From assembly GCA_012964435.1 (NCBI GenBank), contig DTTX01000060.1, positions 1 through 36,563 of the forward strand: DNA of 36,563 nucleotides, written 5' to 3'. The notes under the pieces are model-generated. The model did no database searches. It was not told the origin of the DNA and saw only the letters and a program-made list of their open reading frames with translations. The first letter of the stretch is position 1; the number at the start of each line of letters is the position of its first letter. The stretch is from Mesonia sp. (GTDB taxonomy: Bacteria > Bacteroidota > Bacteroidia > Flavobacteriales > Flavobacteriaceae). Made by a program: the position numbers and the translations under genes. This document shows, piece after piece, positions 31,242-33,251 of this stretch.

Positions 31242-31382
31242 TTTTCTAAGTATGTTAAAATTTGAATATGAGCGAAGAAGTTAAAAAAGATTATTCCGCA
31301 GATAGTATACAGGCCCTTGAAGGGATGGAGCACGTACGTATGCGTCCGTCGATGTATATTGGTGATGTTGGCGTTAGAGGTT

Positions 31383-31423
31383 TGCACCATTTAGTTTATG
31401 AGGTGGTCGATAACTCTATCGAT
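31383..31423 (+). repeat. Inverted repeat arm 1 (original GyrB sequence)
   Basis: A 41-bp segment encoding the conserved [13 protein letters not shown] region. Its exact reverse complement is found at 31892-31932. Because it fits the protein family perfectly here, this copy is taken as the source. Confidence 0.95.
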
Positions 31424-31891
31424 GAGGCAATGGCCGGTTATTGCGATGCTATCGATGTGGTAATAAATGAAGATAACTCGATCTCTGTAAAAGATAATGG
31501 TCGTGGTATTCCTATAGATATTCATAAAAAAGAAGGAGTTTCTGCCCTTGAGGTAGTAATGACCAAAATTGGAGCCGGAGGTAAATTCGATAAAGATTCT
31601 TATAAAGTTTCCGGTGGTCTTCACGGTGTTGGGGTAAGTTGTGTGAACGCACTTTCTACTCACTTACACGCAAAAGTTTATAAAAAAGGTCAGGTTTGGG
31701 AGCAGGAATATGAACGTGGGAACACTTTATATCCTGTAAAAAGTACTGGAGAAACCGACGATAATGGTACTGCTGTAACTTTTAAACCGGATCCGGAAAT
31801 ATTTAAAGAGGTTACTATATTTAATTACGATACGTTAGCAAAACGTCTTCGTGAATTAGCTTTTTTGAATAAGGGAATCAAGATCTCTTTA

Positions 31892-31932
31892 ATCGATAGA
31901 GTTATCGACCACCTCATAAACTAAATGGTGCA
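31892..31932 (-). repeat. Inverted repeat arm 2 (aberrant copy)
   Basis: An exact 41-bp reverse complement of 31383-31423, starting ATCGATAGAG and ending AAATGGTGCA. It stands where a few variable residues of GyrB (after KISL and before DEKGE) should be encoded. Its length, 41, is not a multiple of three. Confidence 0.95.
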
Positions 31933-33251
31933 GATGAAAAAGGAGAATATATTTCAGATCATTTTCATTCTGAAGATGGTCTAAAAGAATTTATTCGCTT
32001 TTTAGATGAAACTCGTGAGCCGATCATTGCCGATGTTGTTTCGATGGAAGGTGAGAAAAACGGTATTCCTGTAGAAGTGGCGATGATTTATAATAATTCT
32101 TATAATGAAAATCTTCACTCTTATGTAAATAATATTAATACACACGAAGGTGGTACGCATCTTTCAGGATTTAGAAGAGGTTTAACAACTACTTTGAAGA
32201 AGTACGCAGATGCTTCAGGAATGTTAGATAAATTGAAATTTGAAATTTCTGGAGACGATTTTCGTGAAGGTTTAACGGCTATTGTTTCTGTGAAAGTTGC
32301 AGAACCACAATTTGAAGGGCAAACCAAAACGAAGTTAGGAAACCGTGAGGTGACTTCAGCAGTATCTCAGGCAGTTTCAGATATGTTGGAGGCTTACTTA
32401 GAAGAAAATCCTAACGATGCGAAAACTATTGTTCAAAAAGTAATCTTAGCCGCACAAGCGCGTCACGCTGCAAAAAAAGCGCGTGAGATGGTGCAACGTA
32501 AAACTGTAATGAGCGGTGGAGGCTTACCGGGTAAACTTTCAGATTGTTCTGAGCAAGATCCTGAACAGTGCGAAGTATTCTTGGTAGAGGGTGACTCGGC
32601 AGGTGGAACGGCAAAACAAGGACGTGACCGTAACTTCCAAGCAATTTTACCATTACGTGGTAAGATCTTGAATGTTGAAAAAGCGATGCAGCATAAAGTT
32701 TTCGAAAATGAAGAAATCCGAAATATTTATACAGCTTTAGGAGTTACAATCGGTACAGAAGAAGATAGTAAAGCATTAAACCTTTCTAAATTAAGATATC
32801 ATAAAATTGTGATTATGTGTGATGCCGACGTCGATGGTAGTCACATTGCAACTTTAATTTTGACTTTCTTCTTTAGATATATGCGTGAACTTATTGAAGC
32901 AGGTCATATTTATATCGCAACGCCTCCTTTATATTTAATTAAGAAAGGAAATAGAAAGCGTTACGCTTGGAATGAAAAAGAACGTGACGAAATTACAAAT
33001 GAATATGCCGGTGGAGTAGCAGTACAACGTTACAAAGGTCTTGGGGAGATGAATGCCGAGCAGCTTTGGGATACTACTATGAATCCTGAGTTTAGAACGC
33101 TACGCCGGGTAACTATCGATAATGGTGGTGAGGCAGATCGAATCTTCTCGATGTTAATGGGAGATGAGGTGCCACCACGTAGAGAGTTTATCGAGAAAAA
33201 TGCGGTTTACGCGAATATTGATGCTTAATAATAAATAAAGTTCTATATTTC

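Follow-up and report, generated by a model that had tools for sequence, protein, structure and literature searches.

The question raised by this locus was whether a gene that is otherwise well preserved is truly broken in the organism, or only in the assembly that represents it. GyrB is essential, and a cell that lost its sole gyrB should die. The window, meaning the whole stretch of 36,563 nt that was analysed, makes up all of contig C60; its first 240 nt seemingly lie within a gene already under way, which by its appearance may be carA. The gyrB gene spans 31268-33228 on the plus strand and starts with an ATG at 31268. Its frame runs normally and then meets a TAA at 31922-31924, and GyrB is picked up again at 31933 in a different frame, exactly as the preliminary description had placed the stop and the continuation. 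The 5' part (31268-31924, plus strand, the ATPase end with the false stop at its end) matches Pfam HATPase_c and positions 1-208 of TIGR01059, while the 3' part (31933-33228, plus strand) is intact and holds the DNA_gyraseB, Toprim and C-terminal domains.

The lesion itself turned out to be made of gyrB. Positions 31892-31932 (minus strand) are a perfect, 100% identical 41-nt reverse complement of positions 31383-31423 (plus strand, native gyrB), with both arms inside the gene and 468 nt between them. A transposon or another foreign insert was rejected because the inserted piece is the gene's own sequence inverted. The ten foreign codons that had been proposed to precede the stop are thus abnormal but not foreign, and they number ~7 or 8 rather than ten, given that 31892-31898 also matches the nearest relative.

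This nearest relative was found at locus L090 of genome G005, which shares 94.3% DNA identity over gyrB. The 1967 nt of the window aligned to 1944 nt in G005, a net excess of 23 nt in the window, and ~34 nt of the inverted copy occupy the place of ~11 nt in the relative. Of the 41-nt copy, the first 7 nt (31892-31898) and the last 2 nt (31931-31932) match G005 in place and represent microhomology at the two junctions. The source arm is present in place in G005 with one base different, at position 31408, and the inverted copy carries the variant of the window, so it was copied from this lineage's own DNA. Differences between the two genes were mostly synonymous in both halves, with non-synonymous changes in 5 of the 208 codons before the lesion and 3 of the 432 after it (8 of 640 in total), and neither side had a further indel or an internal stop relative to G005. 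The earlier statement that gyrB has no other lesions therefore stands against its nearest relative. A pseudogene was rejected on the same figures, as decay past the first lesion is absent. Judged by their sequence, both halves look functional, and the break would therefore be either very recent or not real, which agrees with the initial view of a recent or artefactual event.

An intact second gyrB could have explained the survival of such a cell, and the assembly (3.05 Mb in 94 contigs, rated 90.5% complete with 0.15% contamination) was searched accordingly. The GyrB profile recovered the two gyrB pieces and one intact ParE-like homologue (C83:71428-73230, 393 bits, far under the cut-off of 882), and nothing else; DNA searches likewise gave no second gyrB in this assembly, which may lack ~10% of the genome. 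The preliminary description had called gyrB the only one in the window and had asked for a genome search for a further gyrB or parE: the gene is the only one across the whole assembly too, and the correct copy elsewhere that had been offered as one way out did not turn up, though it could lie in whatever part of the genome is absent. A full-length gyrB above the family cut-off was found in 15 of 15 congeners searched, which leaves this genome as the one miss among 16. Each congener has one such gene, in a single frame, without an internal stop and never split, so a programmed frameshift or a split gyrB was rejected as not conserved. In 14 of the 15, gyrB is accompanied by a second, low-scoring homologue, which I read from its sequence as probable ParE. 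A 28-nt stretch on another contig (C8:26645-26672, L115) matches gyrB 31927-31954 at 93% on the opposite strand, probably by chance. No match to 16S rRNA was found in the assembly, which may merely reflect its incompleteness.

A scan for perfect inverted pairs whose arms lie 20 nt to 10 kb apart then covered 926,459 nt of the same assembly (30% of it, from 61 of 94 contigs, with 7,223 nt masked), comprising the window and 60 stretches of up to 20 kb each from C1-C59 and C61; only inverted pairs were sought. This own set held 15 spaced inverted pairs of at least 18 nt, 13 of which were at least 23 nt long. A control set of 1,169,391 nt from six genomes (369,391 nt of G005, 200,000 nt each of G016, G017 and G018, 120,000 nt of G020, titled Psychroflexus tropicus, and 80,000 nt of G001) gave two pairs of 18 nt and lacked any that reached 23 nt. 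When the own 926 kb was shuffled once under a Markov-1 model, no spaced inverted pair of at least 18 nt arose, and on this single shuffle a chance inverted repeat was ruled out. The spacers of the 14 copies listed ranged from 29 to 1767 nt with a median of 470.5 nt, within a scan that reached to 10 kb.

Nine of the 13 pairs of at least 23 nt adjoin runs of 10 N, with the copy no more than 4 nt from the run (three pairs on C38, three on C32, two on C43 and one on C59), two start at base 1 of their contigs (C9 and C13, with a third case of 19 nt on C16 falling under the 23-nt line), and the remaining two, gyrB and C12, have neither a gap nor a contig start beside them. Leaving aside wholly masked contigs, there are 18 N runs; the nine gap-side pairs sit at six of them, and no inverted tip was found at the other 12. 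Inverted matches of at least 16 nt occurred at 9 of 42 N-run sides (six of which belong to wholly masked contigs and were unable to score) against 1 of 400 random 60-mers. Among own contig starts, 3 of 57 carried an inverted copy of at least 19 nt from base 1, whereas the 56 control starts had no inverted match of at least 16 nt. An inverted tip was also absent from the 29 own contig ends that were covered in full. N runs were scarcer in the controls: G005 had one of 10 N, G018 one of 1359 and G020 one of 120. One contig start (L182) showed a 16-nt inverted match beginning at base 24.

A close comparison of sites on C38, C32, C43, C59 and C12 with G005 showed the source arm in place there and the copy absent each time; G001 and G006 agreed wherever the arm appeared among the matches listed, which for C12 included none from G001. 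At two gaps (C32b and C38b) the sequence on both sides of the N run is identical, so the tips and not the genome made the gap: the two contigs really do overlap, and spurious inverted tips prevented the assembler from joining them. The ten junctions that were measured share 2-8 nt exactly, namely 7 and 2 nt at gyrB, 4 and 6 at C38a, 4 or 5 at C38b, 8 and 4 at C32b, 7 and 5 at C43 and 2 at C59. They were counted by eye, mostly with G005 as a stand-in for the own native sequence, although at C32b and C38b the yardstick was the assembly's own other side (the 8 nt at C32b become 11 if measured against G005); C32a, C12 and the three contig starts are left out of the ten. Whether the source lies upstream or downstream of its copy was dropped as a test of hairpin versus branched-DNA priming, because a double-stranded inverted junction reads alike from either strand.

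I conclude, with a probability of about 95%, that the break in gyrB is a technical artefact, i.e. a chimeric molecule built into the assembly, and not a biological feature. This reading is favoured because the scar recurs, mostly at N gaps or contig starts, while pairs of at least 23 nt are absent from the six genomes sampled, and the sequencing or amplification error that had been listed among the initial options is thereby strongly favoured. The cell itself very probably carries an intact gyrB. Its DNA would have been amplified, most likely by phi29 multiple displacement amplification (MDA) from a single cell or a minute input. In that step or in library preparation, the 3' end of a gyrB strand near 31898 may have annealed via ~7 bases to a gyrB strand near 31417-31423 and copied ~34 nt of it, so that part of the gene became inverted within the molecule. 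Coverage at the scar was presumably low, and where it was thin, chimeric molecules would not have been outvoted and would have ended up at contig tips or, at gyrB, in the interior of a contig with loss of the frame. The second junction in gyrB could stem from a second switch back, or two chimeric contig tips could have been merged. Against an artefact speaks that gyrB has no N gap and that the insert rejoins the gene cleanly, unlike a single MDA chimera. The 12 N runs and the 29 contig ends without an inverted tip also count against it, and so does the gap-free C12 insert, which may be a real mutation.

The scars resemble the inverted chimeras of phi29 MDA described by Lasken and Stockwell (2007; PMC1855051), in which 85% of 475 chimeras were inverted, a junction arose roughly every 22 kb of product, and the partner of an inverted chimera usually lay within 10 kb. 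In both, the second segment is inverted relative to the genome, the partner is near, in a scan that here reached no further than 10 kb, and the junction shares a short sequence: 76.8% of MDA junctions had at least 2 complementary bases, over a range of 2-21 nt that takes in all ten junctions measured here. The gyrB scar differs in that its two junctions lie 34 nt apart and lead back into the gene, whereas the chimeras of that paper are two joined sequences. Later MDA data, as given in the available part of PMC6515389, put inverted chimeras at an average of 91% of single-end chimeras. MDA or a similar whole-genome amplification is, on balance, a reasonably likely cause of the break. Three of the control genomes (G016, G017 and G018) bear the isolate names AG-916-L03, AG-447-E18 and AG-337-B04 and are taken here to be single-cell genomes, although the third is titled a MAG, and these gave no pair of at least 23 nt in 600,000 nt (from each, the opening 20 kb of ten contigs). 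Amplification would thus not always leave the mark, and the case for MDA by name is weakened. End trimming, which some pipelines apply to single-cell contigs, might account for the missing mark, but it plays no part in the argument here.

Within the artefact reading, it is possible but rather doubtful that whole-genome amplification played no part and that the scars came from fold-back chimeras in the library, or from scaffolding or gap-closing by the assembler at low coverage. The median spacer is close to the usual length of library fragments, and the three presumed single-cell genomes without the mark point the same way, but the spacer of 1767 nt is long for a library fragment, and the 2-8 nt shared at junctions fit priming by a polymerase better than blunt joining by software. 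Inverted chimeric fold-back reads do arise in ordinary libraries, where the PDSM model has been put forward for them in the part of PMC10908179 that is available, and an excerpt of PMC5794965 reports chimeric reads from bulk DNA in Nextera XT libraries as well. Like the scars, the PDSM reads join inverted sequence in one read; they differ, as far as the available text of PMC10908179 goes, in being low-frequency calls from human tumour libraries at pre-existing inverted repeats or palindromes, and not an assembled consensus.

Readings in which the DNA of the organism is truly altered fared far worse. It is very improbable that gyrB underwent a real short template switch, in which the replication fork would have copied the opposite-sense gyrB strand and returned, in a dying cell or in one allele of a mixed sample. 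The templated inverted insert, the microhomology of 7 nt and 2 nt and the ~11 nt replaced do fit published cases, and short-range template-switch mutations resemble gyrB in that an insert templated by a nearby strand replaces a short native stretch (available part of PMC7954356). The gyrB insert is also clean and without N, and it has a second gap-free, in-frame counterpart in a SusE-like gene on C12, where 9899-9935 (L127) is a 37-nt inverted copy of 10054-10090 with no N gap and the frame kept; from its sequence, this insert may be a genuine template-switch mutation because the reading frame stays open. However, the mutations described in the portion of PMC7954356 that is available are heritable, while the event in gyrB should be lethal and its likes lie mostly at assembly gaps. 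A mutational process does not predict that the scar recurs with 11 of 13 cases at N gaps or contig starts, the gene is intact in all 15 congeners, and the event would have destroyed the only gyrB of the assembly. It is hardly conceivable that gyrB is truly broken and that the organism lives by another gyrB in the unassembled part or by a GyrB in two pieces: the incompleteness of the assembly leaves room for a missing copy and both pieces have recognisable domains, but no second copy was found, no congener has a split gene or more than one gyrB above the cut-off, and both pieces still change mostly synonymously. Just as hard to credit is that a real lineage went through a spate of short inverted template switches, one of which hit gyrB, and survives by a two-piece GyrB or a suppressor; the in-frame insert on C12 would then be the non-lethal counterpart.

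If the break in gyrB is an artefact, as argued above, a draft genome that scores well for completeness and contamination contains false breaks in gyrB and in several further genes, which would pass for pseudogenes. Scars interrupt the frames of genes for HSP90, BshC, Dus and a response regulator with a PglZ domain (families were named from the G005 proteins), and the frame of a protein with a weak HEAT-repeat match is interrupted near its end. The mark they share is easily screened for and could flag similar genomes: next to a short run of N, or where a frame breaks, a stretch from close by recurs in perfect inverted form. On C32 (L147, 678-1945), three inverted pairs lie within 1.3 kb, in or just after the HSP90 gene, together with two 10-N gaps, and this gene would get called a pseudogene. 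On C38 (L153), the BshC gene has an inverted copy on each side of a 10-N gap at 4250-4370, and a third copy follows ~3.3 kb on, at 7639-7677, beside another 10-N gap.
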